Source: Scenedesmus sp. ARA3 (taxonomy: Eukaryota > Chlorophyta > Chlorophyceae > Sphaeropleales > Scenedesmaceae). From it: a stretch of 64,000 nucleotides of DNA. Numbering within the stretch: the stretch's first letter is position 1; each line of letters opens with the position of its first letter. Where the stretch lies: NCBI GenBank assembly GCA_004335835.1, contig RWJK01001662.1:22129-86128 (forward strand), given 5' to 3'. The translations under genes were made by a program, and so were the position numbers. Positions 1 to 64,000 of this stretch are shown here, piece after piece. Under the pieces are notes generated by a model. The model had not been told where the DNA came from, made no database searches, and worked only from the letters and a program-made list of their open reading frames with translations.

Positions 1-1335
1 CTGCGCTGGGCTTGCAGCAGCAGCTGCACCGCAGCAGCAGCAGCAGCAGCAGCAGGCGGCGCTGCGTGCCGGAGCCGGAGCAGTGGTGGCCAGACTCGGC
101 GGTGCTGCAGGATGGTGAGCTAACATGATGGTCAGCCTGTAAGGGTTTAGTGTTTAGGGTTTTCCACTGAGGGCAGCAATATGCAGTGCCGGAGCAGTGG
201 TGGCCGGACTCGGCGGTGCTGCAGGATGGTGAGCTAACATGCCTGCATCAATGCAGCTGCCCAGCATATGTCTCTCTACATGATTCTGAGGGAAAAGCAC
301 GCATCTGCCACACACCTGCACTGCACATGCAACGCACGTGACGGCCTTAGCGCACACGTCGGCATGCTCCGAATGGCATCGTACACGGACGTAAGTCATC
401 ACAATATGATCAACTCATTTGCTATGAACTTGCTGCAGCGCATGTTGGGTGTGGCGCACCTGCCGGCATGCTCAGAAAGGCATGTCATGCCAGCCAGAAC
501 CATGACCTATTGTTAGTAATCGACTTCTGATTCTTCATATGCTCTGCCTGCAGCGCACCTGACAGGCATGGAGCACCTGCTGGCTTGCTCGGAAAGGCAT
601 TGTAGGCAAACACAAGGTATCAAATAAAACCTTTGCCATAACCATATCCTTTGTGCTTGCTGCAGCGCACCTCACGGGCATGGAGCACCTGCTGGCTGCG
701 CCCTGCCTGGTGCGCGACGGCAGCCCCTCGCTGCTGCTCTTCTCCGCGGGCAGCAGCGGCAGCGTCAAGCGCTGGCGGCTGCGGCTGCCGCAGCTGATGC
801 AGAAGCTGGGCGTGGACGGTGAGGCGTTCTTCTTTGCAATGGAGTTGTTTATTTGACAGTTGCGAAACGAGTATGCTGTGCGGCTGCTGATCAGATTGCC
901 GCAGCTGCTACAGAAGCTGGGCGTGGACGGTGAGGCGTGCTGACTGTTAGAGGATTTCAGTTGTAACAAGCTGCTGCTGACTGACTAGATCTAGGTCCTG
1001 TGGCACCTGATGGCGAAGCTGCGCGTGGAAAGTCAGGCATGCTGATGCCTTGGCTATTGCCTTGGCTGCTTAGTAAACTGCTGAATGGACTGCTGCTGCC
1101 TCCACCTACAGCTTGCTGACGCCCTGCTTCCTACATGTTGCTGCCTGCATTCCACACCCGGCTCTCACCACCAATGCATCACAACAACGTCAGCTGAGTA
1201 CTACCCCTTCATCACTCGAGACGCATCAGCAGCTAGCGGCTCCCTCAGCGCCACACAGCAGCAGCAGCTGCTGCTGCAGCCGGCAGCCAGCAGCGGGCCA
1301 GCAGGATCAGGCAGCTTCTTGGGCTGGCCAGGCCC

Positions 1336-1367
<32 letters not shown>

Positions 1368-2372
1368 TGGAGGGAGCAGGCAGCCAGCTGCAATCTGGCA
1401 CGCCTGTGCAAAGCCCTCCAACAGCAGCAGCAGCAGCAGCGGGAGCTGCGGGTTTGGGAGGGTTGTTGCCTGTGCAGCAGCAGCAGATGTACCCAGGTAT
1501 GGGCAGCATGACACAGCAGATGATGGTGCCAGGTATGCACCTGCAGCCGTCAGTGCAGATGCCTGCAGGCTGGTTGCACCCAGAGCAGCAGCAGCAGCAG
1601 CAGAATGAGGGCAGCAGGATGCAACAGCAGCAGCAGCAGCAGCTACCAGATAGCCCGCTGCAGCAGCGCAGCTCATGCGGTGGAGAGCAGCAGGACCAGC
1701 AGCAGCAGCAGCAGCCGCCTCACCTGTCTGGTGGGCTTTCCGTTGATGATCAGATCTGCATGTACGTGCAGCAGCAGCAGCAGCAGCAGCAGTCGTCAGA
1801 GCATTTGTCATCCGACCTGGACGCCCCACCACCGCCGCAGCAGCGGCTAGACCAGCAGCAGCGGCAGCTGCATGAGCAGGAGAAGCAGCAGCAGCAGCAG
1901 CAGCAGCACTGGCCGCCGCACCTAATGCATGCCCGCCGCTCATTCCTGCGGCGCAACACCACGCTGTGGGCGCGAGAGATCGTGGACAGCCGCTGCAATG
2001 TGGACTTGGCGATGCTGGAGGTTGACCCAGGTGGGTCTGTTGTTTGACTGCCTTTGACTTTTTCGACTTGGTTTGACCGGGTATCATCACGTCCGACATC
2101 TTGGTGCGCAAGACATCCTGGACAGCCGCTGCAATGTGGACATGGCGATGCTGGAGGTTGCCCCAGGTGGGTTTGACTGCCTTTGACTGTCTTGACTTGG
2201 TTTGACCGCTCTTACCAGGTTTGACAAGTAATGGCGTGCGGGATACCAAACAGCTACTGCTGCAACGTTGACAACGTTGTGGTGCTTTTGCGATCGCAGC
2301 GTGGAGCCACAAAGAGCGCTGCTTAGGGAAGGTCTCATTTGGCTGCGTGTAGCGGCGCCTGCTTCTCAATGC

Positions 2373-2407
<35 letters not shown>

Positions 2408-3552
2408 TCAGGCACAGAATGGAGCGACACGGAGCGTATGCCGGCTGAGGTGTCTTTTGACTGCCTGCTGACTTAGTGATTCTGACAAAGTCTTTGTCTT
2501 TCTATTGGTGCATGGCTGCGCCTTTTGCCTTTTTTTGCAGACACCAGCCACAAGCGTGTCCTGGGCGAGGGCTCCTTCGGCTATGTGGAGCGGCGGCTGC
2601 TGGGCAGCACCGCAGTGGCGGTCAAGTTCCTCATGGACACCAACAAGCGCGACGCCAGCAAGTCTTCGTGGGACAGGTGCGGTGCTTGTTGTCGGCTGTG
2701 CTGTGTTTCTTGGTTTGTGGTTGTTGCTGTTGTGGCGGCTGCTGGGACGCACTGCGGTGGCGGACAAATTTCTTGTACGCCAGCAAGTCGTCGTGGGATA
2801 GGTGTGGTGCTTGTTGGATGTGTTTTTTCTATTGATATCCTCCGCGGATGGTGGCTGCTGGTGTCGACTGTCGTGGCGGTTAAACTGTTGCATATGCTTG
2901 CGGTTGAACATGCGATTTGGGCAGCACAGTGGCAGCACAGTGGTGGCAGTTGAAGCTTTCCATTGCTTCTGACAAGGATGACGCCAGCAAGACGTCCTGG
3001 GTCAGATGAGCACCGCTGTTGTTTCTGGCTGTACTCTGCACGCTGTTGTTGTGGGTGCTCATTAGCCATCACGGTGATGGCGGGCAGTTCCCAACGGACG
3101 CAGCAAGCATGGTGCCAGCAAGACGACCTGGGACAGGTGCACATCCGTTGTGTAGCTCTTGTGCGCATCAGGTGCATTGTCATGCACGCTGATTCAAGTT
3201 TATGACGCCGCCTGATCTCTTGCAACCCCTTGCAGGAGCCAGCTGAGCGAGCTGCGGCGCGAGGTGGAGTCCCTGCAGGAGCAGCAAGTATCTCGCCGCC
3301 CCACTGGCCCTGATGCTGTCTGTTGCAGCACACACTTTGCACATGCCTTGTAGGAGCCAGCTGAGCGAGCTGCGGCGTGAGGCGGAGATGCTGCAGGAGC
3401 CACCCAATAACAACAAAGTTTAAATTTTGGACCCATTGCATTTTCTGCTTATGCAGGAGCCAGCTGAGCGAGCTGCGGCGTGAGGTGGAGATGCTGCAGG
3501 AGCCACCCAATAACAAAGTATAAATTTAATCTAAATAATAATAATAATAATG

Positions 3553-3583
<31 letters not shown>

Positions 3584-5142
3584 CAACAATAATAATAATA
3601 ATCTAAATAATTATAATAATAACAAAATTTAAATTTAATTAGATTTCGGACCCGTTGCATGTTGTGCTTATGCAGGAGCCAGCTGAGCGAGCTGCGGCGC
3701 GAGGTGGAGTCCCTGCAGGAGCAGCGCCACCCCAACGTGCTGCTGTTCATGGGCGTGTGCGTGCGGCCCCCGGCAGTCATCACAGAGTTCTGCGAGAGTG
3801 GCAGCCTGCACCAGCTGCTGGAAACGGTGAGGTTCAGGGTTTTCCTTTCCGTAGCGCCGCAAGACACCTTCTGCTGGTGTTGGTTGACCTGTGTGCGTGC
3901 GGCCCCCGGCAGTCATCACAGAGGTCTGCAAGAGCGACGGCCTGCACCAGCTGTTGGAAAGGGTGAGGGTTTTGAGGTTCAGATTTCAGTGCGTCGGGTT
4001 TTACTTTTGACGTTTAGTCTTGTAGTGTGTGCGCGTGCGGCCCCCGGCTGTCATCAAAAAGGTTGTGCAACAGCGGCTCCCTGCACCAGCTGCTGGAGGC
4101 GGTGACGGTTCACGGGTGACGTTTATGGCGTGGTTATAGGTGAGGTTTAGGGTTCAGGGTTTGGTTCAGGGTCCAAGGTATGGTTTAACGCTGCTGCTGC
4201 TGCTACTGATTGGAGCCACCAGCCGTCATCGCAGAGTCCTTTGAGAGCGGCTCCCTTCACCAGCTGCCCGGACGTTGAGTTTCTAGGGTTCAGGGTTCTG
4301 GGTTGTTGGGTTTGAAAAGTTGGGGCGGGCGCGCCGCTTCCACCTGCTGAGCTCTACCCCGGATGCTGTACCTGTATTAACATTTATAACCGGCCTTGCA
4401 CCTAAACTCATACTGCCGTACGTACGTAATGCGTCCGCAGGCGCGCTGTCGCGCCCCCCTGGCGCGCCGCATCCTCCCTCTCAACTTCGTGACGCGTGCT
4501 TCACATTTCTTAACACTCCTGGCCTCCCCTCAGACTGCCACCTGTTGGTGCTGCTTCCGCAGGCACGCTGCTGCGCCCCCCTGGCGCGCCGCATCCTCCC
4601 TCTCAACTTCGCCCTGGATGCAGCTCAGGGCATGGCCCACCTGCATTCGCGCGGCCTCCTGCATAGAGACTTGAAGAGCGCCAACCTGTTCTGCAAGGGT
4701 GCTCCAGCTTCAGGGCTAACAATCAAGGTCGGCGACCTGGGGCTCTCACACCGCCTCAAGCAGGTGAGCAGGCGAGGGTTTTGGGCACGGGCTTTTGGGG
4801 GTTAGGGGCAGGGTATTGCAGCATCATGGCTGACCGTTCAGCTTGGCGACCTGGGGCTCTCGCATCGCCTCAAGCAGGTGAGGCATCAGCAGGTTTGGGA
4901 GTGCCAGGTGCCGTCATGTCAAGCAGGCACGCGAGTCGGCTGCCTCATGCTCACACGGTATAGAGCACTGAGCTGTTGCACCCATGTCTGCACCACATGC
5001 ATCAATGCTGCTGCTGCTGCTCCGCCGTTGCTGCTGCTGCTGCCGCCGGCGGGCCAGATCGTGACCAGCAAGCAGCTGCAGATCAACCCCTCCTGGTGCG
5101 CCCGCGAGGCGCTCTGCTGCAATGCTTGCTGTTGCGCTAACA

Positions 5143-5189
<47 letters not shown>

Positions 5190-5575: not shown

Positions 5576-5607
<32 letters not shown>

Positions 5608-6298: not shown

Positions 6299-8359
6299 AG
6301 GGCTGCCCTTTAGCAGTAGCGGCCACTCCTGCAGCAGATTTGAGATGTCTGGCAAGGTGATGCTGGCGGGCCTGGGTCTTGAGGAGCTAGGTGCAGGCCT
6401 GCCTGCTGGCGCTGCCACATAGGTCGTACCACATCATGTCGGGAAGCAGATGCTGGCAGGCGTAGATCTTGAAGGGGCCTGGAAGGGTCTGGTGCGGGCT
6501 TGGCTGCTGGCGCTGCCACATGATGGGCTGCTGCAGGAGTTTGAGGTGTGGATTGTGGATGCGCATGCAGGTGATGAGGAAGCAGCCAGTGCTGCTGCAG
6601 CGTTGCCGTGGTCACTTCGTGTGTTTCTGCTGGATGCTTTGCTAGCTGGATTTTGGCCGTCGGTACTGGCAGGTGGTTGCTGTGTTTGGTTGACGTGTGT
6701 GTTGGTGTGCAGCTGCAGTGCCACTGTGTGCTAATTTGCAAGGTGGGGCTTGGTATGCAGCCTTGACAGCTGCTGTGGTGAGTTTGGTTGTTTTGGTTGG
6801 TTAGGTGTGTGTTGCAGATGGTGAGGCCAGGCTGCAGGCTAGGGTTCTAGATGTAGGGTGATTCACCAGCGAGTAGCTCAGTGTCGGGTGCAGCTATTAC
6901 AGTGAATGGATGCCGCTTCTCCCCCGTGCAAGTGCGTGCGTGCAGGGCTCAAGCCTGTGTGATATCTGGTTTCGGCTGCTGCAAGCAAATTTGCCGGCTG
7001 CTGGAAGCAAATTTGGTGGCTCTGCAGCAGCGTATTCAGCAGTCGGTCAAGTGTTGTGGGTTCATGCGGAGGTCACCCAGTAGTATATCTAGTGCTACTT
7101 GGCACTTCACTGCTTTTCTGGAGCTGGTCAAGCAATATATAATCTAGGCAGCCAAATTTTTGTGGTCATCAGGTTACCAACCAAGCCATATGATAGCATG
7201 GTTGATGTGCAGGACCCTGCCAATGCTTGAGCTGCTTGCCCCATCAGCCAGCAGACAGCGTGCTATTGATGTGTGTTGCAGCAAAGCGCAGCTTGCAACG
7301 CATGCTTTAAAGATCTTGGGCGCCCTTTGCTGGTCAGAGAGTATCAAATTGAGTTGATCCTTGGGGCAAATTACAGCAGGGGTCTGTGCAGTTAGTTAGG
7401 GCAGGGTGTTAGTGGCTGCTATGCTGCGTAGGTAGGCAGCAAGGCAGTTGGTTGTTGGTGCATGATGTGCCGTATAAGGTTCTGATTTGGCGCTCATGAC
7501 AATTGGGAGGGTGCTGTGCTGTTTTGCTGCTAGTTGTGTAGGTGTGTGCTCTGTGATGATGTCAAATTTCCAGGATGCAACATAACAGGAGGCTGCACTG
7601 CAGGCTCTGATGGCTTGTTGAGGGGCTGCATCATTGTGGCAATTTGTCGCTGCTGCTTAGAGGGTCGTGTTCAGGCGCAAGACGAGCAGATTTGGGTGTG
7701 GCTGCTCGCATGAGTTGCTTTCGCAGCGGCTGCACCTGGTGGCCCATGGGCCAGCTTGAGTTGTCGTCATGCATGCTGGGGAAGGCCTTGCATGTGCTGA
7801 CGTTGTGTTGATTTGGTTGGCATGTGACGCACGACCTTATCAGAGCTTCTCATCGCAATAAGGCTGAGGCAGCACTGTGGGGCAGGCTTGTGTGTTGGGT
7901 TGTCTGTGGCATCATGCTGGTGCTGACAACTCCTGTTGTGCTCGGTTATTTTGCATGGACATGTACACTGTGGCTTGGTGCTACTGTACTGCCAAGCCTG
8001 ATGTTGTGTAAGGCTGCCAGCGCAGTGCATCGTGGTTCCTGCAAGCCTTGCAGGCGTGTGGCGCTTGCTGCCAGCACTGCGATTGATGTGTCTTGAAGGC
8101 AGCCGGTCTATGGTGCACTCGCTGTTGAACTACAACTCATGGTAGTAATCATCTAATCTCGATTTCATTATGCGGTTCAGTGGTTGAGCTAGAGCGTGGC
8201 AGCGGATCAGGCATCAGTCAAACTGTGGTACTGATCAGGGCTTTGACTAGATACTCCCATTGCACCAGGCGTTCCGTGCTGGATCAGATTTCACAACTGC
8301 GTACACATACTGAGATATAGCCAGCCTTTGATTACGCTGCTTTGCCGAACCTTTTCACC
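6299..8359. other. Kinase 3' flank and spacer upstream of the PsbP gene
   Basis: About 6331-6424 and 6436-6533 are two further tandem copies of the last 90 or so bases of the kinase coding region, including the ATGTCTGGCAAGGTGATG region and the stop-codon vicinity. They are likely in the 3' UTR. The rest, about 6550-8359, shows only short unconvincing reading frames, and I see no gene in it. Confidence 0.6.
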
Positions 8360-9978: not shown

Positions 9979-11983
9979 AGCACCTGCGGCGTTGCCGATT
10001 CAACCGCCTCGACCATGAAATGGATGCAGCAGCCGCAGCTGCCTGCCAGCTTCCCAGCCTGGGCTGGCAGCAGCAGCAGCAGCAGCAGCACGCCAAGGCA
10101 CAGTCCTAACAGCACCGCGGCGTGCAGCTGCGCTGTTCTGTGCGCTGGGCAGCGGCCGTGTGTGTCCGCCCACAGCGAGCAGTACACCAGTCAGGCAGTG
10201 CAGCACAGGCTTCGTCTCTGACTGCATGACCACCTCCTCATTGTTCCACATACCCTTTCTTCTGCGCTGCGGCGTGTGCTGCTGCTGCTGTGCCGTGCTG
10301 CTGTTGTTGCTGATGTCGCTGCAGACCAGCGTGCGTTTGTGATCACGCTGACTCGTGCTGGCGAGGACAATGCACGCTTCCAGCTGACCGACACAGAGTC
10401 CACCTTTGCCAGCTTCGCGGGAGCCGACTACGACCTGCAGGTGCTCATACAGTAATAACACTTTTGAGAGAGGGTACATAAGTTTGTAACAAAGAAATAC
10501 ATGTGTGTACAATTATGAGGCGTTTGTACTTGATGCCATGCCATTTATTTGTCCAGCTGGCTGCTGCACCATGAGCACTGACAAGACATAGCTGCAATCC
10601 ACCGCGCTGCACTACCGTCATCTGGTCTGGCGCAGCCACCATCTCCTTTCCTAACACCTTTGTGTTGTTACATGTTACTAATCATGTTGTTATTGTCATT
10701 AACATCTGCCGCCAGGATGCGCTGAGTGACGCTACCAACACAGAGAAGGGCGAGTCGGAGAAGGAGGGCATCAAGTTCTTCAACTACAAGATCGACTCAC
10801 CGGTGAGCTGTCATTGTCATGTGACAGTTTACGTAACATACAAGTAACAAGATTTATTCTGATATAGTGCTCGTGACAACCAAGTACAAACGAGTAGGTC
10901 AGAGAAGGGCATCAAGTTCTTCAACTACAAGTTCGACTTGCCGGTGAGCCGACAATGTCATGTGACAGGTGACATAACACTCAACGTTATAACGTGACAA
11001 TGTGACATTGTGATGAGGTGCTGGAGCTGGATCTGGCCAGCTGCGGTGGCTGGTTGTATTATGTGCTTTCCGGAGAATCGCACGGGCAGTCTTAGCAGCG
11101 TGTTACACATGCGCACCAGGCAGCCAGGTCCCTCAGCTGCGGTGTTCACTGTCGACGTCAACATGGCTACTGCTGCTGCTGCTGCTGCTGCTGCAGGCAT
11201 ACGTGTACCTGTCCAGCATTGCGGTCAAGGATGGCAAGGTCTTCGCGCTCTTCGTGCGCAGCCCAAGCAGGGTGAGCGCAAAGCAGATAGATAGCGTCAA
11301 GCAATTGCTGCTGTGCAATGCACTATCGTGTGCTGGCTGCAGCCATCGTGTCGTTGCGGCTTACGCATGGTGAAGCAGAGCGCGTGTTTTGTGTGCACCC
11401 TTGACAGCGTGAGTGCAACCAGTAGCTTGGAACATACACCGTTCTGCAATGCACTGCGTGGTGCTAGCTGTGCTTGATTGCACCAGCTGCTTGTTTGTGA
11501 TGTAGCAGAGTGCGGGCTTTGTGCGCAGCCTGAGCAGAGCGAGTGCGCTGCCGCTACCAGCCAAGTGCACAACCAAGCATTCAAACTTATCCAATGCACT
11601 GTATGATGCTGGCTGCATCAAATGCCAGGTGTCTGCACTGACACAGAGTTCAGATGCTGCTGCTGGTCAAGGTCCCGCAGCACGTGCTGTGGCGCAATGG
11701 TCAGCAGCAGCTCCTGAACTCTGTTGTGAGCAGTGGGCTGTCTGTAGCAGGCTCCCTTTTTTCATTTGCATGCCTCCTTATGTGCATATGTTTGCTTGCA
11801 CGTCACAGCACTCTTCTGTGTGGGGTGGTTAATGTGATGCCGCCGCCGCTGCCGCTGCTGCCGCTGCTGCTGTTGCTGCCGCTGTTGCTGCTGCCGCTGC
11901 TGCTGCTGTTGCTGTTGCTTCAGCTGTATGCGGCAGCTGCCAACGACCTGCAGCACATCGTGGACACCTTCAAGCTGCTGTGA
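8360..11983 (+). CDS. PsbP-domain thylakoid lumen protein
   Basis: Predicted 250-residue lumenal protein of the PsbP family, not the photosystem II PsbP subunit itself. Exons, all phase-consistent: 8360-8591, 9036-9114, 9534-9582, 9881-9935, 10325-10440, 10716-10802, 11197-11271, 11924-11983. Exon 1 encodes a plastid transit peptide followed by a second signal ARREALLASIALPLL ending AQADA, a twin-arginine (Tat) lumen signal with an AxA-type cleavage site. The mature part has FFGMASPPTSYGGYGGNAN, YTFEYPAGWK, GTQGIDGRVVNPRSK, AFVITLTRAGEDN, GADYDLQDALSDAT and YLSSIAVKDGKVFALFVRSP. These strings recall the Arabidopsis 29.8-kDa lumenal PsbP-domain protein (PPD4), but that assignment is from memory. 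The ATG at 8360 is chosen because the transit peptide starts there. Introns 2, 6 and 7 hold decayed exon-edge copies. Confidence 0.87.
9202..11545 (+). repeat. Exon-edge copies in PsbP introns
   Basis: About 9205-9245 repeats the end of exon 9036-9114 (AACGAGAGCC..AAAG) with its donor and intron flank. About 10898-10945 repeats the end of exon 10716-10802 with donor GTGAGC. About 11370-11412 and 11503-11545 are degenerate copies of the end of exon 11197-11271, the TTCGTGCGCAGCC region, with its donor. None keeps an intact exon, so they look non-coding. Confidence 0.75.
9481..9990. repeat. (CTG)n and (CAG)n tracts at PsbP intron ends
   Basis: Long CTG runs at about 9485-9523 and 9798-9864 lie just before the acceptors at 9533 and 9880. 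A CAG run at about 9944-9976 follows the donor of exon 9881-9935. The CTG runs can serve as polypyrimidine-like tracts. Confidence 0.85.
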
Positions 11984-21521: not shown

Positions 21522-24500
21522 TCACAGCTTACACGCTGCCTGGTCTCGCAACACCTGCTTCTTGGCACGCCTGTAGTGCACAACAGCCGCCATAAGCCGG
21601 TCTGCCTCACTGCTCTGGCCTGCCTGCTGCTGCTGCTGCATCAGCCACGCATCATCCTGCTCTATGCTGGTAGGGAAAGCCTCAAGCAGCTCCTGGCAGC
21701 GCATCTGCAGCAGCTGCTGCAGCAGCGCTGGCAGCTGCTCACCGACAAGCCCTGCTTGCTGCCCTGCACTGCTGCTGCTGCTGCTACCAGCTGCTGCTGC
21801 TGCTGCATCCAGCAGTGCTGCCATGACAGCAGGAAGCCGTACATCTATGCAGCCGTCGCAGCGCAGCACTAGCTCAGGGATGGTTTGGGGGCACTCGGGG
21901 GTGCCCCAAGAAGGACTGCAAGCAGCAGCAGCAGCAGCAGCAGCAGACAAGGAAGCTGTAAGTGCTGCAAGCACAGCAGCCATTGCACACAGCATGCAGG
22001 GCAGATGAGAAAGGAAAAGGGCAGAGAGACGGCTGTAGCCACTTTCCTTGGTCTTGACCAAAGACTAGCATGCTTGCGGATGCACAAAAGGATGAGAGAC
22101 TGCTCGTCCGCTCAACGCTAGGCGCCCGTACCTGTGTAACCTACACGATGCCAGCCTGCGGTGCAGCTGCAGGTACTTCATGCCTGACAGCACCGCCGCC
22201 TCACACACTGCACTTCCACATGCCGCATGCAGACAATCACACTGCTGCGATATTTCGCCTGCAGGATAGTCGCCGAGGTCCACAACCAGAAAGCGACTGC
22301 TCCTGCGGCCTGAGCATCACGGCACACCATGCGTGGATAATCACATAACAAAGCGCACCATGCTGTGCCCCAAAAGCCCTTAGGTATGCATGAACAACAC
22401 ACGTACCTGTGCAGCCTGCATGACGCCAGCCTACGGTGCAGCTTCAAATACTTCATGCCTGACAGCACCGCCGCCTCACACACCGCACCACTGCCGCCGT
22501 GCCCCAGCTGCTGCTGCCACTGCTGCTGCACCTGCTGCTGCAGCCTGCTGGGTGGCTGCTTCAGCTGCTGCGACAGGCTGTGCAGCGGCAGCAGTGTGCT
22601 GCTGCTGGTGCCCTGGATAGCACCTGAGGAGCCGAAAGCTGAGGCCTCCTGAGCAGCGCGTGTGGCAGCAGCCTCTGCAGACAGCAGCAAAAAGCAGCAA
22701 CATAGATGTTGCATGTCAATTGTGTGTACCGTGCGGATGGCAACCGAGGAGCAGAAAGCTGAGGCCTCCTGAGCAGCACGGGTGGCAGCAGCCTCTACAG
22801 ACAGCAGCAGAAGGCAGCAACACAGATGATGCCTTCCGATTGCGCACAACATGTGGATGGCAGCTGAGGAGCAGAAGGCTGAGGCCTCCTGCGCTGCACG
22901 CGCAGCTGCTGCCTATGCAGAAAAGTGCACGCAGCAACACAGAATTGCTTGTTGATTGCGCATAACATGTTAACATGGAGTTTGCAGAGTTTTTTTTTTA
23001 CATGTGGATGGCAGCTGAGGAGCAAAAGGCTGAGGCCTTCTGAGCAGCACGTGTGGCAGCAGCCTCTGCAGACAGCGATCACGCAATTGATGTGGTGCTG
23101 ATTGCGCGCGCGCGTGCATGACGAATGGCTCGCGGGTACATGAAAGCTCCGCGCTTGGAGCAATGTTTGTTTACACGCGCCGTGCCTGGGCCACATGTGA
23201 TGCCCATTGGTGGACAGCAAAAATGAACGACACCCGCAACCATGCACCAGCCACCACCCAACAGCACCCACATGTGATCTCTTGGTTAGTTTCGCACATG
23301 TATCACCGACTCTCACCTGCTACAGCTGCCAGCTGCTGCTGATCCCAGCCAGCCGCCGCCAGCGGCTGCAGCTGGGGCAGCCGCTGCAGCGCCCAGGCCA
23401 GCAGCTGCTGCACATCTTCAAACAGCACCACATCCTCATCGGGGTTGTTCGGCAGAGCAAAGCCGTGGTACACAAAGTAGTCGTCATTGCCGCGCGTGCC
23501 ATAGCTCCACAGCACCTGGAGAGGGGAGTTGCAATGCATAGCGTGTCAGAGCACATTGTTACACATCGGACGATTAGGATGCACAGCAAGTCCACCACAT
23601 GTGATGCAGCGCACGGCGAAGCACAGTGCGCAGGGCAGGCAGGACAAGGAGTTGCAACAGCGGTTTCACAAGCTGCTGCTTGTGCCCAGCCGGCGCTGTG
23701 GCCACTCCTAATCTGGTGCGGCTGCATGCAGGGGACAACACCACAGCATGACCAGCGTCCTTCGGGATCCTGGCTTTGTGTAGAATTCGTCATGTTACAG
23801 CAGCAGCCTCTCCATCCCTTTCCAAGCATGGCACGCGGTTGAATGCAGGTATGTAGATACAAAAGTCAGCAGCACCAACCCTGCTTGGCAAGATCACCCG
23901 CTGACCCGCTGCAATGTAACACTGCATGGCATGCGGGCACATGGGACACACAGCCAGCAGTTTGCTGTTCACATCCGTGTTTCTAGCTCACCTGCTGTCC
24001 CGCTGCGATGTGGCTGCTGGTGACAAAGCACACCGCTGGCTCCCCTTCCAGCTGCCAGCTGGCCTTGCCTAGCACCAGCTGACCGTTGGCTGCTGAGCCG
24101 CCGTGGTTCAGCAGGTCGATGCCTGCAGGGCAGCACGCATCAGCGAAGATGAGCACGTATCAGCTGCAAGCAAGGTCCTAGTCAACACACACCATCAACT
24201 GGCCTTGCCCAGCAATGGCTGCCCATTTGCTGCTGAACCATGGCGGTTCAGCACGTCGATGCCTGCAGGGCAGCAGTAAGCATGCGGAGTTTGCGTATGC
24301 AGTTGCATCATGCAGCTGCCAGCTGGCCTTGCCCAGCACCAGATGACCATTAGCTGCTGAGCCTCCGTGGTTCAGAAAGTCGATGCCTGCAGGGCAGCAA
24401 GCGTTACATGGTTTGGCATAGAAAGACAGGCAGCAGCAGCACCAGCTGACCGTTGGCTGCAGCACCGCCATGATTCAGCAGGTCGACGCCTGCAGGGCAG

Positions 24501-41912: not shown

Positions 41913-43229
41913 ATGGCAATCGCAGGCGCTGCAGCGCTGCTCGCAACCTTCAAACAGCAGTGCTTGCTGCTGCTGCTGGCTGTGCTGTGCTTGGCTCTCC
42001 TGCAAACAGATGCTGTGGACGTCCGACCTGATCCATTCTGCTCCACTCCAGAACAACCACCTCCGGCGCTCTACAACACCAGAGGTAAGCGCTACTCCTT
42101 CCAGCAAGCAGGCGGGAAGTTGAGCAGAAGCAGCGCCTGCATGAGCTGTTCAACGTCGTGCAGCACACAGCTGGCTGACTAGCCAGCACACAATGTGAGC
42201 TTAACTATTGTAATATGGTGCTTTTTCCTGCAGGCCAGCTTGTGCCGCAGCCCCTGGCCAGGAGGGCAAAGCTACCCGCGCAGCTGCCAGTCAACGCCAC
42301 ACTGCAGCGCGAGGGGGCCACCTACAGCTGGCTGTACACTCAGTTCTTCAACCTGCTGGGGTGGGCACCCTGCCCCCTGTCAACAACGCCAAGTGAGCCC
42401 AGTACAGTCAGCGCAGCGCTGCAGCTGCCAGCTGCCAGCAGCTGCAGGCACCTGTGGCGATGCAACACCGTTGCACGCAGAGCTATAGCTCATGTAACAG
42501 GCACGGCGTGCGCCTGCAGCCATGCTTCTATGAGCATCGTCATGTTGCTGAACAGTTGACAACGAGCTTGCTGTGCATTTTGCACCCGCAGAGCCGTACT
42601 CTGAACCAGCTGGTTGGAAGCTAGAAGCAGTGCTCAACACTGAGTGTATGCCTTGTGCTGTGCCTGTTGCGCTGCAGAGCCGTACCCAGAGCCTGTGGGC
42701 TGGAAGCTGGAGGTAGTGCTCAACATAACCTCCATGTACGGCAAGGAATTCACACAAGTGCCAACAGCAGCAGTGTTGCGGCCTAACACCACCAATGTAT
42801 CCAGGCAGCTGCTGGTGCTCATCCGCGGCTCAGCGTTTGACGAGAACCGCATCAGTGAGTGCAGCCGCAGCTGGACGGCGAGCACACCGTGTGCAGCAAA
42901 AGCAAATGCAGCAAACGGGTGAAATTTGGCGGTCGTCAGCCCGCTGTCACTTGCGGTGTGTCAACAACTTGTGGTGTGTCACTTGCGGTGTGTCACTTGT
43001 GGTGTGTCACATGCGGTGTGTCACTTGCGGTGTGTCACTTGTGGTGTGTCACTTGCGGTGTGTCACTTGTGGTGTGTCACTTGCGGTTTGTCATCAGCTC
43101 GCTGTCGCTTGCGGTGCAGCTGCGCAGCGAGCGGCCTGCACGCAGCTGCTGACAAGGGCCGGCAAGCCCTCCTCAGCCTTGGAGTATAGTAGCAGCCAGT
43201 CGACATGCTGCTGCTGATGATGATGATGC

Positions 43230-43289
<60 letters not shown>

Positions 43290-47363: not shown

Positions 47364-50300
47364 ATGGCGAACAATGACGCTGTGCTCGCGGAGCTCGAGG
47401 CTCAGCTGCGTGCTCCCGACAGCATCCTGGAGCCAGGAGTGCTCGATCTGCTCAAGGATTACCTCCGAGCAGGCGGCAAGCCGCAGGCAGCGATCGAGGA
47501 CTTGTCAGAAAACTACTGCGGTGTGTACTGCTGCAGCAGGCTGCACCTAGGAAGTTCGGCAGCTGCTGTTCATGCTCTCCCTGGTCAAATTGCAGACGTT
47601 GAATGCATATGAATGTTGTATGTATAGTAGGGCAGGTGCAGCAGCAGCTGTATGCCAGCAGCAGCACCAGCAGCAGGAGCGGGAGCCAGCAGCACCAAAG
47701 CACACCTGCTGCATGTCATGGTTGCCAAGTTGCTGCAAAACCAGAAAGCAGCAAGCAGAAGCTCAGCACCACAGCTGACTGCTGCGCTTTTCCGCTGCAC
47801 CACATCACCAGAAGCCGCAGAAATTGAAGAATGAGCCGGGGGGCAAGGTGCCACCTGGTGTTGGGCGGTACCTGGGCTGCTATCAGGGTACCCTCACTGC
47901 TGTTGGTGCTCGTTACTGTCACTGCCTGTGACGACACTGCTGCTGCTGCTGTGCCGCTGCCCTGCCTTCACCAGGCTATGCCCAGATGTGCAACGTCATG
48001 TGTGAATGGCTTGAGATAGCAGACGTGCGCACCAGCAGCAGCAAGCACGGCAGCAGCGGCGGTGCCCGGGCTGCAGCTGGGCCTTCCAGTGCAGCAGCTG
48101 CAGGTGGTGGCGGTGCTGCTGGCGATGCTGATGGTGGCGTGCCTGATGAGTTCACACTGCTGTCGGTGAGGCACATGCAGGCAGACAACACACAGAGAGG
48201 CATCTGCCTCTTTGCAAACTGTTTGAAGGCAGCAGCAGCAGCAGCAGCAGCAGCAGTGCCTGCTCGATTCGTTGAGGCCTGCTGGTCAGCGTCCTGCTGT
48301 GCTACTGCCCAGCCATTAGCAGGCACAGCTGCAGCCGCAGGCAGCTACTTTCAAGTGAAGTAGCAAGCGTTGATGTCATAACACATTTCAAACGCCTGCA
48401 GGAGCTGGCCAAGGAGCGCTTTGATGCTGCCAGGTGTCTTGGCGTGTTCAGGCACGGCCACCCAGCGTGGCTCAACATGCGATTTGTCACATTCTGTTGC
48501 AGTGTACAACTATGTTACAATACTTTTTTATGCCTGCAGGAGCTGGCCAAGGAGCGCTTTGATGCAGCCAGGTTCCTTGGCGTATTCAGGCGCGGCCACC
48601 CGGAATGGCTCAACGAGCTTATTGCTGACAGGCGGGGGCGGCAACTCATCTATGAGCTCAGCGCGGCGCACCGCAACAGCCTGCTGCTCAACTACGCCAT
48701 CCAGCGCATCCTCAAACAGGTGCGTGTGATGACTGAAGCTGAATTGAGGTTGTTGCTTTGTATGAACTTTGATGTGGGCTGCTGCTCAACTACGCCATCC
48801 AGTGCATCCTGAAGCAGGTGCAGCTGCTGTGTACGGGCTGGTTTTGGGAAGCATAAACAGTGCTGTGTCTTCATGTGGCCTGCGGCGCAGCCGGCTGGGG
48901 TCGACCGTCTATGTCAGGACGGTGTTGGAAAAACGCTTTTCAAGGCCGCGGGTCTGGTGCAACAGCAACGCTGCAGCCATCTCTTGCACTCACTCTGTAT
49001 GCACGCTTGCCGCTGCGTGCTTGTCGCTGCGTGCCACTTGCAGGCCATGAGGAGGAGGTGGCCCTTGTGGGAGGCTCCATGGCCAGCTGCTTCTGAAGTG
49101 TACCACAGGCTGCTGCCGCTGCACTTCACCTCTTCACACGCGATTGCTGTACACTCTGCTTTCAAACAATCTGCAGGGCCATGAGGAGGAGGTGGCCCTT
49201 GTTGGAGGCTCCCTTGCCAGCTACTTTGAGGTCTACCACAGGCTGCTGGCCACACGCTTAGCAGCAGCAGCACGCGCAACCACCTCAAAGCAGCTCGCGC
49301 AGATCGCCGCAGAGATTGCAGAGTCCTGCGTGGCAAGTCAGCACACCTACGTGCACGCGCAGCAGCTGCTGGCGGCTGCTGCGAGCTGGCCGGGCGGTGG
49401 TGTGTTTAGAAGGTTAGGGCAGGAGGTGGAGGCAGCAGCTGTGGCGCAGCATGGCGGCACAAAGGTGTACCAGCTGCAGGTGGGCATGGGGTGTCATGTA
49501 CACTGTTACTTTCTGTGTTACTTGAGGGTGTTGCATGTGGTTACATGCGTCAGGAGGTGGAGGCTGCTGCTGTGGCGCAGCATGGCCGTGCAAAGGTGTC
49601 CCAGCTGCAGGTGAACTGCATGGTGTAGCGTGCTGGCTGTGCATGTGTGGTGTTATTGGTAGTGAGCCAGGACTTGTTGCCCCTTTGTCTGCCGCTACAC
49701 TGCCGTGCTCCCGAGCTGCTTTGCGCTATGATTCTTCTGCCACTGCTTCTGCAGCCGCTGCTGGTGCCACTATCGGCCTCCCCAGAGGAGCGGCGAGCAG
49801 TGGGGCTGGTGTCAGAGGTGCTCACACGCACCGCACCCAGCTTGCCCGGTGGGTTTCTTGCAATTTGCATCTTCGGAGCATTTAGTAGTTGCTAGCGCAG
49901 TGATGCTTGGCCTGCTCGCTTGGGGCTGGTGTCGGAGGTGCTCACACGCACAGCACCAAGCCTGCCCGGTGAGTTTCTTGCATTTGAGAGCATTGATTAG
50001 TTGCTAGCGCAGGTGATGGCTTGGCCTGCTCAGCTGGGGCTGTGTCAGAAGTACTGACACGCACAGCACCCAGCCTGCCCGGTGCGTGCATGCATTACAT
50101 GAGCATTTAGGCGTTGTATTAGCGCAGCAGCGCTGTCCTTTCTCAGCTGTACAGGCTGGTGCCGGAGGTGCTCACACGCACAGCACCAAGCCTGCGCGGT
50201 GAGCTAACTGACGAGCTGTGAGCTGTTGCACAGGAAGCACAGGCATCATCAGCGCGCTTGCTCAATGCAGCACATGACATGTGGCACCAGCCCACCAGCT

Positions 50301-51163: not shown

Positions 51164-51198
<35 letters not shown>

Positions 51199-53514
51199 GC
51201 AAGACCATCAGCAGCAGCAGCAGCGAGGCAGCAGTCCTGTTGCGCAGGTGGAGAGCCATGCTACAGTGGAAGGTGTTGCAAGGCTGCTGCGGCAGGCGCT
51301 GCAGCTGACGCAGATGGTGTCAGGGCCTAAAGCCAAGTTGGGGCCAGCAGAGCTTGACATAGCAGCACAGGTAGGCTGGCATGTGTGTGCTGCTGCGGTG
51401 GGTGCTGCAGAGCTACGTTGTGCATTAACAGGAGGGTTGCAGCTTAAACGCATGGACTGCAGCGCTTCCTGCAAGCATCTACTTCGATGTGTTTTTCCTG
51501 CAAGCATGAGACAACAGCTAACCTGACCTGACCCTGACGCTTGATACTTCATCCCTGCAGGTGTGCAAGCAGCCCATTGCCGCGCTGGGGCTGCTGCAGC
51601 ACTCTCAGGCCATTTTGTCTAAGTTCAATGCCTATCCTGCACGCATGGGATGCAACCTATACTGCTCATGCACGAAATGCCACTCCCTTTGGGCTGTTGC
51701 AAGCATCAACTTGTCTCCGGCCGTCTCGGTTTCCGTGCAAGCGTCAATCAACAGCTGCCGGCTCCACCCACATGTTCACTCGACACGCGCTGCGTCCCTG
51801 CAGGTGTGCAAGCAGCCCATTGCCGCGCTGGGGCTGCTGCAGCACTCTCAGGCCATGCTGAGCGATGCAAATGCTTATGGGGATGACAAGCCTTCTCCCT
51901 TCCTGCCCAACCACCGCAAGCAGCCTGCACGCATGCTCTGCAATGCTTCCTGCAAGCATCCCCTTGAGGCACCATGCATCTTTCGTCGTGCTAGCAACCA
52001 ACAGCTGCTGNNNNNNNNNNNNNNNNNNNNNNNNNNNNNNNNNNNNNNNNNNNNNNNNNNCAGGCCATGCTGAGCGATGCGAATGCTTATGGGGAGGACA
52101 AGCTGGCGCCCTTCCTGCCCAACCACCGCAAGCAGCCTGCACGCATGCTCTGCAATGCATCCTGCAAGCATCCCCTTGAGGCACCATGCATCTTTCGTCG
52201 TGCTAGCAACCAACAGCTGCTGGCCCATCTGGTTTCTTCCACCTGCTATGCTGCTGCAGGTGTGCAAGCAGCCGATTGCTGCGCTGGGGCTGCTGCAGCA
52301 CTCTCAGGCCATGCTGAGCGATGCGAATGCTTATGGGGAGGACAAGCTGGCGCCCTTCCTGCCCAACAACCGCAAGCAGCCTGCACGCATGCTGTGCAAT
52401 GCTTTCTGCAAGCATCCCCTTAAGGCATCATGCATCTTCCGTCGTGCTAGCAACCAACAGCTGCTGGCCCGTCTGGCCTCTTCCACGTGCTGTGCTTCTG
52501 CAGGTGTGCAAGCAGCCCATTGCTGCGCTGGGCCTGCTGCAGCACTCGCAGGCCATGCTGAGCGATGCCAACGCGTATGGTGATGACAAGCTGGCGCCGT
52601 TCCTGCCCAACCACCTGTCGCTGCTGCACAGGGTGGCCTGCGAGCAGCCCAGCCTCATCGCACAGGTAGGGGCAGTGTGTGTGAGCTGCTGCGCGTCTGG
52701 GTGGACCAAGAGAGGCAGGAGGGTGATTCGACACATGCTGCCCAACATGTACAGAACACCCGGCTTCAGAAAGCTACTGCAACTTGCTGGTGTGTGTGTG
52801 GCTGCCACAAGCTTGTTTTCAGTCTGCACTGTGCTGGACACCATGCTTTCTGGTTGCAGGTGCTGGGCGTGCTGCGTGCCGTGCTGGGTGCGCTAGGCCA
52901 CAACCGGCCCGAGCTGTCGCGCAAGGTGCTGGGCTTCCTGGTCAGCCTGCTTGTGAGCGGGGCGGCAGACGCAGCCATGGGCATGGCACAGGACTGGGCG
53001 GCAACAGCAGACCCCTCACTCATCCGGCACTTCATACAGCTGGTGAGCCTCTCTGGCACCACAGCATCAAATGTGTTGCTGCCTGACGCAGCGTGTCTTC
53101 ACCTGGGTTTGACACTCATTTCTCCAACACCAGTAGCAGCCTGCAGTTGCTGACATGCAGCTGTGTAGAGTGTGGAGCCGTGCTATGTCTGCGGCCGTTG
53201 CACACGCCCTGCGGGACAGTCCCATGCTGCTCAAAGATCATGCTGCTGCTGCCGCTGCCGCCGTCCCCAATTCCACAAAAGGTGCCGGAAAGTGTGGTGC
53301 CGCCCTACTGTGCCAGCTTTGCGCGCGCATGCTTTGCGTGATGCATCCAATCCCCATGCAACAGACGATGCTGCTGCTGCTGCTGCCACTTGTCTTTTTC
53401 AATCAACTGCAGGTGCCGGAGAGTGTGGAGCCGCCCTACTCCGCCAGCTTTGCGTGCGCCACGCTGCGCGTGATGCAGAGCGATTCCCTCAAGTGTGCAA
53501 ATACTCATGCTGCC

Positions 53515-53547
<33 letters not shown>

Positions 53548-53765: not shown

Positions 53766-53875
53766 CGCCAGGGCTTAGGGGGTTGCATTGCTGCTGTTTT
53801 AGTTGCTCTCTTTGTGGCTTGAAGCCGCCGATCAGCAGGAAGGACGAGGACCTGCTGCTGGAGCTGGTTCAAGGG
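53160..53875 (+). repeat. Copies of NELF-C/D last-exon edges
   Basis: Starts of the last exon (GTGCTGGAGAGCGTGGAGCCG) recur at about 53163-53180, 53281-53335 and 53414-53492, the last with a good CTGCAG acceptor and about 80 bases of similarity. After the stop, about 53825-53872 repeats the exon's end (CAGCAGGAAGGACGAGGACCTGCTGCTGGAGCTG). Confidence 0.85.
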
Positions 53876-54799
53876 ACTAACGTGTAGAAGGAGGGCTGGT
53901 CTGCCAGCTGGCTGCAGCGCCTCTAGGATGACTAGTTCGATACTGTGATGTGACTCGTTGTGGCTTCACCTATTGAAATCACACCCGGCCAGCAAGCCGC
54001 TTTGTGAGATTTTGAAGTGGACAGAACGTTCCTGCAATGCTGCGGGTGTGGGAGCCGTGCAGGCACCCCAGTCAGTCTCACAGATGTGCATGTGCATGTG
54101 ACAGTCACCAAGAGCTGTCATCAAATCACCACACATTGCCTGCTGGCAAACGTGAAACTACATGTGTTTTGCAACAGGACATCCTCTTCACAGGTTCTGG
54201 TTTGCTAGCGTTGCTGTGAACTCTCACCAGCACGTCGAGTTCGAGCTCAAGCCATCGGACGTGCGGCATAAAGCTGATCAGCCCAAGTTGAAGTAGGAAA
54301 ACATCCTCTTCACAGGTTCTGGTTTGCTAGCGTTGCTGTGAACTCTCACCAGCAAGTTGAGTTTGAGCTCAAGCCATGGGACGTGCGGCATAAAGCTGAT
54401 CAGCCCAAGTTGAAGTAAAAAGAAAACTTTACTGTGACTCTGTCTCGGCACGGGCTCGGACGGGTGAAGTCACTCCTGTGCCATTTCACAAGGTGCGCCT
54501 GATACGAGGAGCTCACCCGCTTTCTAGTTGTACGCACGGCCTAAACGTTATGAGGAATCCAAAACCTTTCCATGGGTCAAGCTTTCGGGCTCTCTACCGC
54601 TGCAACAGTACCATGCTGGGTTGGGTTGCACGCGCTGATCAGCGGTGACTGCTTCGCACACCAGTTCCTTACTGCCTTGCTTGAGCTCGCCGCTGCTGTG
54701 CTGTTGCAGGTGTGACAGACAATGAGCCTTGATTCACTGCAAGCTGCGCTAGCAGCCTGGCAGCAGGAAAGACAATAACACAGCCGCTTAGCTTACCAG
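53766..54799. other. Spacer with an orphan duplicated terminal exon
   Basis: Besides the copy of the NELF end, the only structure is the tandem pair at 54177-54418 described separately. Between 54420 and 54800 I see no convincing exon except a possible short start (MSLDSLQAALAAWQQ, 54723) that I could not splice to the LRR gene. Confidence 0.5.
54177..54418 (+). pseudogene. Tandem pair of an orphan terminal exon, possibly a PTEN-type C2 fragment
   Basis: Two units of about 121 bp start ACATCCTCTTCACAG and read in one frame FWFASVAVNSHQ.VEFELKP.DVRHKADQ and end KLK-stop (TAG in the first, TAA in the second). The acceptor-like CTCTTCACAG precedes each. Unit differences are few (CACGTC/AAGTT, TCG/TGG). 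Upstream, 54130-54170 can read NVKLHVFCNRT. The FWF strand followed by a Lys/Asp helix recalls the end of the PTEN C2 domain; this is a weak guess. No complete gene surrounds it. Confidence 0.35.
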
Positions 54800-58289: not shown

Positions 58290-58333
<44 letters not shown>

Positions 58334-60488: not shown

Positions 60489-60531
<43 letters not shown>

Positions 60532-60774: not shown

Positions 60775-60826
<52 letters not shown>

Positions 60827-61344: not shown

Positions 61345-62206
61345 GTGGCGCCACATCATCATCACAGTCGTCAGCAGGTGGTGCCGGCAGCGCCAGCAAC
61401 CCAGCACGTGCAGCAGCACAGCTGACGCAGGTGGCGCAGCAGCTGCGGCAGCTGCTGCAGCTGTACACGCAACAGCAGGAGCAGCAGCAACAGCAGCAGC
61501 AGGTGGTGCTGTCTGTGCAGCCGCTGCAGCACCCCCGGCTGATGCAGTTGATGCTGTCAGGTGGGGTGCTGCGTGGATGGCGCTCTCTTGTGTTGCGGGT
61601 GGCTTGCATGCGCATGTGTGCTGTGCTTGGCCACTGTGCAATTCCACGGCAGGCTGTAGGCACCCGCAGCAGCGTTTGCTACTACGGGATCTTGTGCTTG
61701 ATTGCCTGGTCTGTCTGCATGCACTGCTCTAGGCGCACTGCGCATCCCTCTGCCTCCTGCTCTGCAGTGCCCAAGATGCCACCCATGCTGCTGTGGTGCC
61801 GCACATGTGTTGCAGTGTACCTTGCATGTGCATCAGCGCCGTGCTTGACCACTGCAAGGCACAAGTTATGCCTGCGGTGATGTGTCAACACCTACACCAG
61901 TGCTAGCTGGAGTTGTTGCATGCATTTCAATGTGCTCAGGTCTGCCTTGATACATTGTAGCCTCGCGCTGCGCATCCCTCAGCTGCACTACAGTGCCTAA
62001 CATGCCACCTCATGCCTGCTGCTGCTGCTGCTGCTGCTGCTGTGTCGTTGCCTGCTGCAGGCATGTTTGCATTAGACGGACCAAAGCAGCCCCAAGCAGC
62101 AGCAGCAGCAGCAAGTCAGCCAAAAGGCCCAGACCTCACTGAAACATGCGTGCAACTCTTAGCCCTAGCAGTAGCAGGCCCGCAGCAGCAGCAGCAGCAG
62201 CAGCAA

Positions 62207-62240
<34 letters not shown>

Positions 62241-64000
62241 GAGGCAGCAGTCCTGTTGCGCAGGTGGAGAGCCATGCTACTGTGGAGGGTGTTGCAAGGC
62301 TGCTGCGGCAGGCGCTGCAGCTGACTCAGATGGTGTCAGGGCCCAAAGCCAAGCTGGGTCCAGCAGAGCTTGACATAGCGGCACAGGTAGGGTGGCATGT
62401 GTGAGCAGCTGCAGCGGCGGGTGCTGCAGGATCAAGATGTGCATCAGCATGAGGGTCGCACGAGCAGCCACAACACACAGACTGCAGCTCTTCCTGCATG
62501 CAGCTACTTCGGTTCCTTTCCTGCAAGCATCTACTTTGGTTTCTTTCCTGCAAGCATCTACTGCGGTTCCTTTCCTGCAAGCATCTACTTCAGTTTCTTT
62601 CCTGCAAGCATCTACTTCGGTTTATTTCCTGCAAGCATCTATTTCGGTTCCTTTCCTGCAGGCATCTACTTCGGTTTCTTTCCTGCAAGCATCTATTTTG
62701 GTTCCTTTCCTGCAAGCATCTACTGCGGCTCCTTTCCTGCAGCTGCAAGCATGAGCCAACAGTTGCTGACCCAGCCGCATCCTTCCATTTGTCCTTTCGT
62801 GCAGGTGTGCAAGCAGCCCATTGCCGCGCTGGGCCTGCTGCAGCACTCTCAGGCCATGCTCAGTGATGCCAATGCGTATGGTGATGACAAGCTGGCGCCC
62901 TTCCTGCCCAACCACCTGTCGCTGCTGCACAGGGTGGCCTGCGAGCAGCCCAGCCTCATCGCACAGGTAGGTGCAGTGGCCGGTGTGTGCTGTTGCAGCT
63001 TCAGAACTGCAGCGACCTGGCTGAGTTTTTCCTGCCGTGTGTGCGACTGCTGCGCGCTGCCTGCATCATGCGGCTTGCTTCCGCAGCCCGCCGTACATGG
63101 TACCACTGTTATTAACATTGTCGCTGACACTCCGCTGCTGTGTATGGTGTGCCACTGCTGCAGGTGCTGGGCGTGCTGCGAGCCGTGCTGGGTGCACTGG
63201 GCCACAACCGGCCCGAGCTGTCCCGCAAGGTGCTGGGCTTCCTGGTCAGCCTGCTTGTGAGCGGCGCGGCAGACGCAGCCATGGACATGGCGCAGGACTG
63301 GGCGGCAACAGCCGACCCCTCGCTAATACGCCACTTCATACAGCTGGTGAGAGCTGTGGCGGTGATTTATGCCTGCAGCTGCTGCTGTTGCTGCTGCTGT
63401 TATGCAGCTGTATCTGAGTGGATCATGCAGCTCTGCTTACATTGTGTGCCACACAGCACAGCCCCCACACTGGCTGCCACAGCCTCTCACGCTGCTGCTG
63501 CAACATATTTCCCTCCTTACCGCAGGAGCTGGAGATTGTGGAGCCGCCCTACTCTGCCAGCTTTGCGCATGCCGCGCGTGATGCAGCAACATTTCCCTTC
63601 AGCAAACAGATGCTCATGCTGCTGCCCCGCCGCCGCTGCTGCTGCAACTCCTCCACTCTAATGCACAGGTGCTTGAGAGTGTGAAGCCGCCCCACCCAGC
63701 TTCCTTTGCGCGCCCTATGCTGCGCGCGATGCAGCACAGCCCCCATGCTAGAAACCATATACTCAAGCTGCTGCTTCTGCCACCCCTTGCAGGTGCTGGA
63801 GAGCGTGGAGCAGCCCTACTCCGCCTTTACCGCTCCCGCCATGCTGCGCATATTTCAGTGCATTGCCCATGCAGTCAACCATATACTCATGCTGCTGCCT
63901 CTGCTGCTGCTGCTGCCCCTTGTAGGTGCTTGAGAGTGTGGAGCCGCCCTACTCTGCCAGCTTTGCGCGCTCCATGCTGCGCGTGATGCAGCACAGCCTG
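61345..64000 (+). CDS. Second, 5'-truncated NELF-C/D copy, continues past the window
   Basis: Exons equivalent to NELF-C/D exons 6 onward: 61345-61560 (216 bases, as in copy 1), an uncertain one from 61653, 62061-62386, 62805-62966, 63164-63346, and the last exon from 63926 to the window edge. Exon lengths match copy 1 except the Q-rich one. Differences are mostly synonymous, with the reading frames kept (for example SGAADAAMDMAQDW against SGAADAAMGMAQDW). The first five exons of the gene are absent from the 1.1 kb upstream, and the upstream neighbour is the LRR-hydrolase gene, so the copy is truncated at its 5' end. It may be an unexpressed duplicate, may have gained a new start, or the order may reflect mis-assembly. 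Confidence 0.75.
62489..62752. repeat. 27-bp minisatellite in a truncated NELF-C/D intron
   Basis: About nine units of TTTCCTGCAAGCATCTACTTCGGTTCC with C/T and T/A variants. Copy 1 has essentially one unit at the same place (about 51467-51500). Each unit carries a pyrimidine run followed by CTGCAAG or CTGCAGG, an acceptor-like sequence. Confidence 0.9.
63500..63925 (+). repeat. Copies of the last-exon start in the second NELF-C/D gene
   Basis: Before the exon at 63926, starts of the same exon occur at about 63526-63570 (GAGCTGGAGATTGTGGAGCCG), 63670-63725 and 63794-63850. Each follows a CAG acceptor and diverges after 40-60 bases. Confidence 0.85.

Follow-up and report, generated by a model that had tools for sequence, protein, structure and literature searches.

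Direct tandem copies of exon edges in the introns and 3′ flanks of a Scenedesmus genome: probable border-spanning duplication with retention beyond a neutral model

The 64-kb stretch analyzed here (64,000 bases; "the window") occupies positions 22129–86128, the end of an 86,128-base contig (RWJK01001662.1) in the 87.27-Mb, 1567-contig assembly of Scenedesmus sp. ARA3, and short, decayed copies of exon edges—an exon end together with its splice site—recur in its introns and 3′ flanks. An earlier inspection of the letters alone (the sequence-only reading) had named seven affected genes. Pfam families were found for kinase, PsbP, SET, polyprenyl synthetase (FPPS), Lipase_3, and TH1 (NELF-C/D), which upholds those labels, whereas the "M1AP-like" product matched no Pfam family. 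The FPPS model aligns with a Tetradesmus obliquus protein at 98% identity over its full length and the NELF-C/D model at 96% over 95% of its length; judged from such sequence matches, this green alga is T. obliquus or a close relative.

Copies were counted in a sample comprising the window and 21 other loci picked by contig number (192,184 bases; three loci more than half N), 256,184 bases in total or about 0.3% of the genome. Gene models came from a self-trained finder that combines a coding model with fixed splice matrices; its splice signals were sharp (CAG/GTGAG at donors, CTGCAG/G at acceptors), and 210 high-confidence exons were used. Some model errors stand inside the edge counts: the called donors at 34997 (FPPS) and 53761 (NELF-C/D) are really stops, the called acceptor at 53599 falls within an exon, and some genes are fused.

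Nearby self-similarity was overwhelmingly direct. Within 3 kb, self-comparison of the window gave 82 direct vs. 7 inverted matches; across the sample, under stricter masking and within 1 kb, there were 275 direct vs. 2 inverted matches, with 61 more direct ones at greater distance. Shuffled sample sequences (one dinucleotide shuffle per sequence) gave no near self-matches. When 60-mers from the edges of the high-confidence exons were searched on both sides, acceptor edges had an upstream copy in 29/174 cases and a downstream copy in 6/174 (binomial P = 1e-4), and donor edges had a downstream copy in 34/176 and an upstream copy in 6/176 (P = 8e-6). The asymmetry persists with the window left out (acceptor 17 vs. 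5, P = 0.017; donor 23 vs. 6, P = 0.002). Stop edges had a downstream copy in 2/19, to which the two mis-modeled stops of FPPS and NELF-C/D are additional. Reverse-complement controls gave none for acceptor and donor edges and 1/19 for stop edges, and middles were copied at 5/83 in each direction for exons and at 9/134 and 11/134 for introns. These counts drop edges that were too heavily masked (20 acceptor and 14 donor); a stricter limit of at most three masked bases drops 44 and 27 and leaves 26/147 acceptor edges with an upstream copy, 34/161 donor edges with a downstream copy, 6/69 exon middles, and 97/666 intron tiles with any copy. Taken alone, the contrast between edges (63/350) and the exon middles of the stricter set (6/69) is weak (P = 0.07, masking having differed).

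The copies run up to the border itself: The match extends to it in 28/29 acceptor copies and 26/34 donor copies, and alignments show the exon edge and its splice site recurring one unit away in direct orientation, as border-spanning tandem duplication entails. Copies sit before an exon as acceptor edges and after it as donor edges, in the arrangement first described by the sequence-only reading. The habit, which that reading took to be genome-scale, is not limited to the window: Exon-edge pairs also turn up at 11 of the 21 other loci. An artefact of assembly, or similarity by chance, is extremely improbable as a source: The assembly has many short contigs and one array holds an N gap, but divergence among copies is graded, their flanks are distinct, the shuffle and reverse-complement controls were empty or almost so, and copies occur in 12 of 22 sampled sequences. 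We confirmed that exon-edge copying is real, directional, far above chance, and present beyond this window.

Unit size is narrow. Among exon-edge pairs spaced 60–199 bp, 36/45 fall at 100–149 bp, and 18/26 of the longer spacings form a second group at 200–300 bp, a tighter pattern than the 100–250 bp first suggested. Copy–copy pairs (14/17) and intron-only pairs (20/29) in the 60–199 bp range share the 100–149 bp unit, so a unit of this size is no special property of exon edges. Copy number per edge, proposed as one to six, proved to be so: Across 404 high-confidence edges, stop edges included, 326 had none, 46 had one, and 32 had two to six, giving 78 copy-bearing edges, about a fifth. Three or more copies occurred at 17 edges vs. 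2.0 under a Poisson distribution, so copy number is over-dispersed. Introns with copies were longer (median 439, n = 25) than those without (248, n = 91), in part because the copy itself adds length. A minisatellite array does not describe the pattern, as edges have one to six copies and their intron halves mostly differ, leaving no whole-unit homogenization.

Positions in the window are collected in Table 1. The copy at 3231 equals the live kinase exon over its first 50 exonic bases, and its intron side is unrelated to the live one; within the same array, an AT-rich (AAT)n stretch lies at 3511–3642 amid GC-rich DNA. Nearly a whole unit is retained at 52061–52615 in NELF-C/D, and 54179–54417 holds a near-fresh 122-bp tandem duplication (96.6% identity over 117 bp) that carries a short terminal-looking exon with acceptor and stop. 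Copies past the stop, claimed for three genes, hold for FPPS and NELF-C/D; that of the kinase depends on the frame running to its end at 6295, whereas the gene finder placed a donor at 6232.

Table 1. Live exons and exon-edge copies located in the window
Gene	Feature	Position	Strand	Evidence
Kinase	Live exon	3676..3826	+	gene model, Pfam
Kinase	Copy 1, acceptor and 5′ end of exon 3676–3826	3231..3285	+	
Kinase	Copies 2 and 3 of the 5′ edge of exon 3676–3826, 103-bp unit apart	3349..3527	+	
Kinase	Copy upstream of exon starting near 4529–4563	4407..4489	+	
Kinase	Copy of 3′ end and donor, exon ending 4763	4810..4882	+	
Kinase	Two decayed copies of last part of open frame ending 6295	6339..6531	+	
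PsbP	Copy of 3′ end and donor, exon 10716–10802	10903..10979	+	
SET	Donor-side copy, exon 22407–22674	22127..22213	-	
SET	Acceptor-side copies, exon 22407–22674, unit about 120 bp	22735..23076	-	
SET	Four acceptor-side copies, exon 23992–24122	24196..24611	-	
FPPS	Live exon, copies on both sides	33511..33744	+	
FPPS	Two acceptor-side copies, exon 33511–33744	33312..33465	+	
FPPS	Donor-side copies 33808–33861, 33917–33978, 34156–34195; a weaker one between	33808..34195	+	weaker copy by eye
FPPS	Two copies of last codons past stop 34999–35001	35082..35253	+	
Lipase A	Short weak copy, acceptor and first bases of exon 39504–39941	39343..39378	+	
Lipase B	Acceptor-side copy, exon 42678–42854	42569..42639	+	
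NELF-C/D	Acceptor-side copy, exon 48540–48719	48394..48476	+	
NELF-C/D	Donor-side copy, exon 48540–48719	48779..48821	+	
NELF-C/D	Acceptor-side copy, exon 49177–49479	49039..49115	+	
NELF-C/D	Donor-side copy, exon 49177–49479; peptide missing from T. obliquus protein	49551..49613	+	
NELF-C/D	Three donor-side copies of 3′ end of preceding exon	49921..50203	+	
NELF-C/D	Four acceptor-side copies, exon 52504–52665, unit about 244 bp, N gap inside	51552..52371	+	
NELF-C/D	Two acceptor-side copies of last exon	53280..53478	+	
NELF-C/D	Copy of last codons past stop	53824..53877	+	
NELF-C/D, second 3′ half	Three decayed acceptor-side copies of last exon	63515..63858	+	

The intronic half of the duplicated unit is still detectable in part of the pairs. 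When 16 intron bases beyond the splice consensus were compared, 24/52 pairs matched in register at half or more of the positions vs. 2.2 expected, and in the remaining pairs the intronic half could no longer be detected; the 24 include one wrongly placed border (53599) and a few CTG-rich cases. In gapped alignments of 47 adjacent pairs, intron-half identity was 0.690 vs. 0.604 for shuffled sequence. This residual in-register homology indicates that whole units were copied, and insertion templated on the exon end without its intron half is for that reason not favored. The sequence-only reading had proposed repeated local tandem duplication, its breakpoints falling within exons close to the border, and this is supported by these pairs and by the near-whole units.

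The two halves did not fare alike: The exonic half of the copies outlasts the intronic half. In the identity profile, which leaves out 11/63 pairs that are gapped or short of the border, identity falls sharply at the border and stands at 0.51 at positions +5 to +9 past the donor. A predictive check under neutral decay placed 26/47 pairs below the 5th percentile at an indel ratio of 0.2 and 22/47 at 0.5. The similarity of the intronic half is thus below the neutral expectation, also when constraint on the live exon is taken into account, and the earlier account of decay everywhere except in the constrained copy finds no support in the form given.

A similar disparity appears between paralogs. 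The window holds two versions of the 3′ half of NELF-C/D, separated by 10 kb (50513–53640 and 61313–64000, the second running off the contig end), and between the halves (50.5–53.1 vs. 61.3–63.4 kb) third codon positions differ by 13.7% and positions 1–2 by less than 3%. Of five intron stretches compared, two are no better than shuffled sequence, one is uninformative because lengths are unequal, one reaches 0.72, and one 0.89. Introns here seem, from this comparison, to be rewritten faster than synonymous sites, and the slow change of exon-type sequence is perhaps not special to the copies. By eye, T. obliquus NELF-C/D matches the second version at several residues. A genome search with the NELF-C/D region (at least 216 matches; 40 of 607 candidates scored) gave, among the matches listed, its own locus, the 3′-half duplicate, and short matches over CAG/CTG stretches, and no second haplotype. 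A 27-bp minisatellite of about nine units occupies 62491–62741, in an open frame just upstream of an exon of the second half; the corresponding part of the first half has no 27-bp array among the repeats listed. The two lipases (37292–39941 and 42234–44811) are tandem class-3 paralogs, about 22% diverged at third positions over four exons.

Slow change in the copies could reflect coding constraint, were they spliced as alternative or cassette exons. Differences between exon and copy do concentrate at third positions (72/1264, 56/1258, and 173/1266 for positions 1, 2, and 3; 13.7% vs. 5.1% at positions 1–2), and changes comprise 161 synonymous and 132 nonsynonymous, with 3 stops vs. 9.4 expected if all were neutral. 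The splice dinucleotide is kept in 56/63 copies (25/29 acceptor, 31/34 donor), and identity drops sharply at the border. But a second splice site at the far end of the copy was not in excess (AG 16/24 vs. 13.6 expected; GT 13/28 vs. 15.9 expected), copy spacing showed no frame preference (remainders 0, 1, and 2 modulo 3 in 8, 13, and 16 of 37), 6/63 copies carry a frameshift and 3/63 a stop, and by eye the copies are missing from FPPS and NELF-C/D as predicted in T. obliquus, which is annotation rather than RNA evidence. Use of the copies as exons is accordingly very unlikely in our estimate, and cassette or tandem exons were rejected on splice site and frame. Intron gain by AGGT duplication was set aside on the same lack of a second splice site beyond chance and on the copies missing from the two proteins. 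We read the codon pattern as mostly unused copies compared with a live exon whose changes are synonymous, with some constraint on copies possible. The retained dinucleotides are potential decoy splice sites, as had been foreseen, and they do mislead prediction: The gene finder called at least six window copies as exons.

We compared these observations with forward simulations of random, approximately 122-bp tandem duplication in which the live exon was under selection and decay was neutral, with parameters that were chosen rather than fitted. One neutral run gave acceptor copies at 0.155 upstream vs. 0.027 downstream and donor copies at 0.147 downstream vs. 0.029 upstream. The border step was also reproduced, simulated identity at +5 to +9 past the donor being 0.54–0.70 over four runs against the observed 0.51. 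Since a simulation without exon preference reproduces the geometry, the placement of copies needs no exon-seeking machine.

This geometry underlies the reading we favor, and hold to be moderately probable: Exon-edge copies are local tandem duplications kept by splice neutrality, followed by unequal decay of exon-derived and intronic sequence. The genome would repeatedly form local direct tandem duplications with a unit of about 100–149 bp, and those spanning a single border would survive, with splicing still using whichever live border lies outermost: the acceptor on the downstream side, the donor on the upstream side, or the stop that comes first. When an acceptor is spanned, the border that stays live is the downstream one, and when a donor is spanned, it is the upstream one, so only these geometries keep the protein unchanged; a duplication within an exon leaves no usable outer border. 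The border-spanning geometry is observed; from it we infer survival through splice neutrality, whose sufficiency the simulation demonstrates. Each event would leave a half-exon with its splice site, seemingly unused, in the intron or 3′ flank. Repeats would then seed further repeats, and clustered copy number follows where repeats breed repeats. Intronic sequence would turn over fast while exon-derived sequence, copies included, changes several times more slowly, so that old events are recognized mainly as exon edges. The difference itself is measured, and past activity may also have been higher. The likeliest source of the duplications, judged from size and orientation, may be staggered breaks or nicks that are filled in and joined, or flaps that are re-ligated in lagging-strand synthesis.

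Several results weigh against this reading, at least in its neutral form. The gene models are purely ab initio. Fresh whole-unit duplications are scarce. Simulated intron-half identity was 0.761–0.768 vs. the observed 0.690 (P at most 0.0003), with 90th percentiles of 0.96–0.98 vs. 0.81. Of 997 observed intron tiles, the match was to an exon in 70, to other copies in 17, and to intron alone in 43, whereas the corresponding simulated counts were 123, 14, and 339 of 1932 and 150, 23, and 412 of 2041; exon-edge relative to intron-only copies thus stand about 4.5-fold above the neutral model, intron-only copies being relatively scarcer than expected, and other neutral versions gave ratios of 0.33–0.64 vs. 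the observed 1.6. By eye, exon-edge units or unannotated exons account for some of the "intron-only" pairs, so the edge excess may be larger. A decay factor of 0.25 for exon-derived DNA gave divergences of 0.048 at positions 1–2 and 0.147 at position 3 and an intron-half identity of 0.705 (observed 0.057, 0.134, and 0.690), but its tile ratio was 0.86, and factors of 0.12 and 0.5 gave 0.62–0.66. A past burst followed by 40 or 70 quiet steps (middle runs) brought the tile ratio to 1.05 and 1.64 and identity in the intron half to 0.698 and 0.627, but divergence at positions 1–2 rose to 0.095 and 0.110; a burst alone, near the observed ratio and intron half and too diverged at positions 1–2, is not favored. 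Fourfold slower decay fits the divergences and a past burst fits the ratio; neither alone fits both. Finally, unequal exchange and homology-dependent conversion, at three rates each with 12–40 simulated pairs per run, did not reproduce the data: The edge ratio never exceeded 0.55, and the intron half was not lowered to 0.69.

The excess at edges bears on whether duplication is instead targeted to exon borders, through exon nucleosomes, R-loops, or transcription-coupled breaks, with a nucleosome-like unit. Both the approximately 4.5-fold ratio and the narrow 100–149 bp unit suit this account; however, intron-only duplications share the unit, and targeting alone should leave the neutral-model share of fresh whole units, contrary to the lowered 90th percentile. 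We regard targeting as improbable. The restriction to edges stressed by the sequence-only reading is explained in part by splice-neutral geometry, while intron-only duplications do exist and the excess surpasses what neutrality yields.

Recombination offers a border-aware form of retention: Nearby exonic halves would be overwritten from the live exon, through short-tract conversion, template switching, or repeated unequal exchange, and intronic halves would drift apart. Mosaic copies fit it: NELF-C/D copies 51552–51613 and 51795–51856 are identical over 62 bp with a sharp drop on both sides, the kinase copy at 3231 joins its identical exonic bases to an unrelated intron side, and trees of exon core and intron side conflict in 11/18 informative triples vs. 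19/79 simulated (P = 0.004, taking triples as independent and dropping those with N). Yet the informative triples come from seven arrays only, the kinase conflict is also explicable by one unequal exchange, the exchange and conversion simulations fell short as described, and the third-position excess in exon–copy differences exceeds the roughly twofold maximum estimated for simple conversion. We judge this recombination account unlikely. A slightly smaller chance attaches to a border-aware process that continually re-templates half-exons from the live exon or its transcript, with exon-type sequence slow wherever it is located and introns rewritten around it; if true, introns would be a standing store of near-functional copies of splice sites and exon edges. 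With duplication kept by splice neutrality still preferred, our verdict on the pattern is a genome-scale variant of border-spanning tandem duplication with a retention bias beyond the neutral model.

Known systems share parts of this pattern. In one report (PMC4974935), a tandem genomic duplication across an intron–exon boundary of the potato RdRp gene is a single event that made a new intron through a cryptic donor in the copy. There too the duplicated unit crosses a border and the copied border lies within the gene; in the alga, by contrast, the copies are spread over many genes, show no excess of a second splice site, and only make the live intron longer. The same source cites the gain of introns when an exon segment containing AGGT is duplicated (Rogers 1989; Hellsten 2011), which likewise is local tandem duplication of exonic sequence with splicing keeping the protein unchanged, but the alga copies existing borders with their own acceptor or donor, and there is no sign of a new intron. 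For the duplication step, PMC8355091 describes CST–Pol alpha–primase fill-in at staggered breaks yielding small tandem duplications in mouse and human cells, with induced breaks and, in one assay, 50-bp overhangs; the products are direct and local like those here, there at breaks with complementary overhangs, and any link to the alga is our inference. Yeast rad27 (FEN1) mutants show ABA to ABABA insertions of up to 100 bp (PMC5677150), alike in size class and orientation, though impaired flap processing is not in evidence for the alga. Introners (PMC9860276) also affect introns genome-wide, but are dispersed copies of one element, whereas each copy in the alga is recognized by its match to its own neighboring exon. 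No prior report of genome-scale exon-edge half copies was recognized among the results listed in literature searches, which reached few subscription journals.

The copies have practical and evolutionary reach. Repeats are already documented to cause false spliced alignments (PMC10632439), and if about a fifth of edges genome-wide carry copies, gene prediction and spliced-read alignment risk phantom exons. In a comparison of five algae (PMC5966456), T. obliquus is listed with the longest mean introns (462 bp) and the smallest coding share (15.7%), and copied edges are one visible contributor. As a natural series of aged border duplications, the copies offer a way to examine intron lengthening, the rejection by splicing of a near-perfect decoy about 125 bp from the site in use, and a possible separate decay rate of exon-derived DNA outside exons.

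Other repeats accompany the exon-edge copies in the window. CAG/CTG trinucleotide runs are dense throughout, and true minisatellites are also present. An unidentified gene carries a 105-bp in-frame coding tandem repeat at 58737–59085, which encodes charged units of 35 residues.

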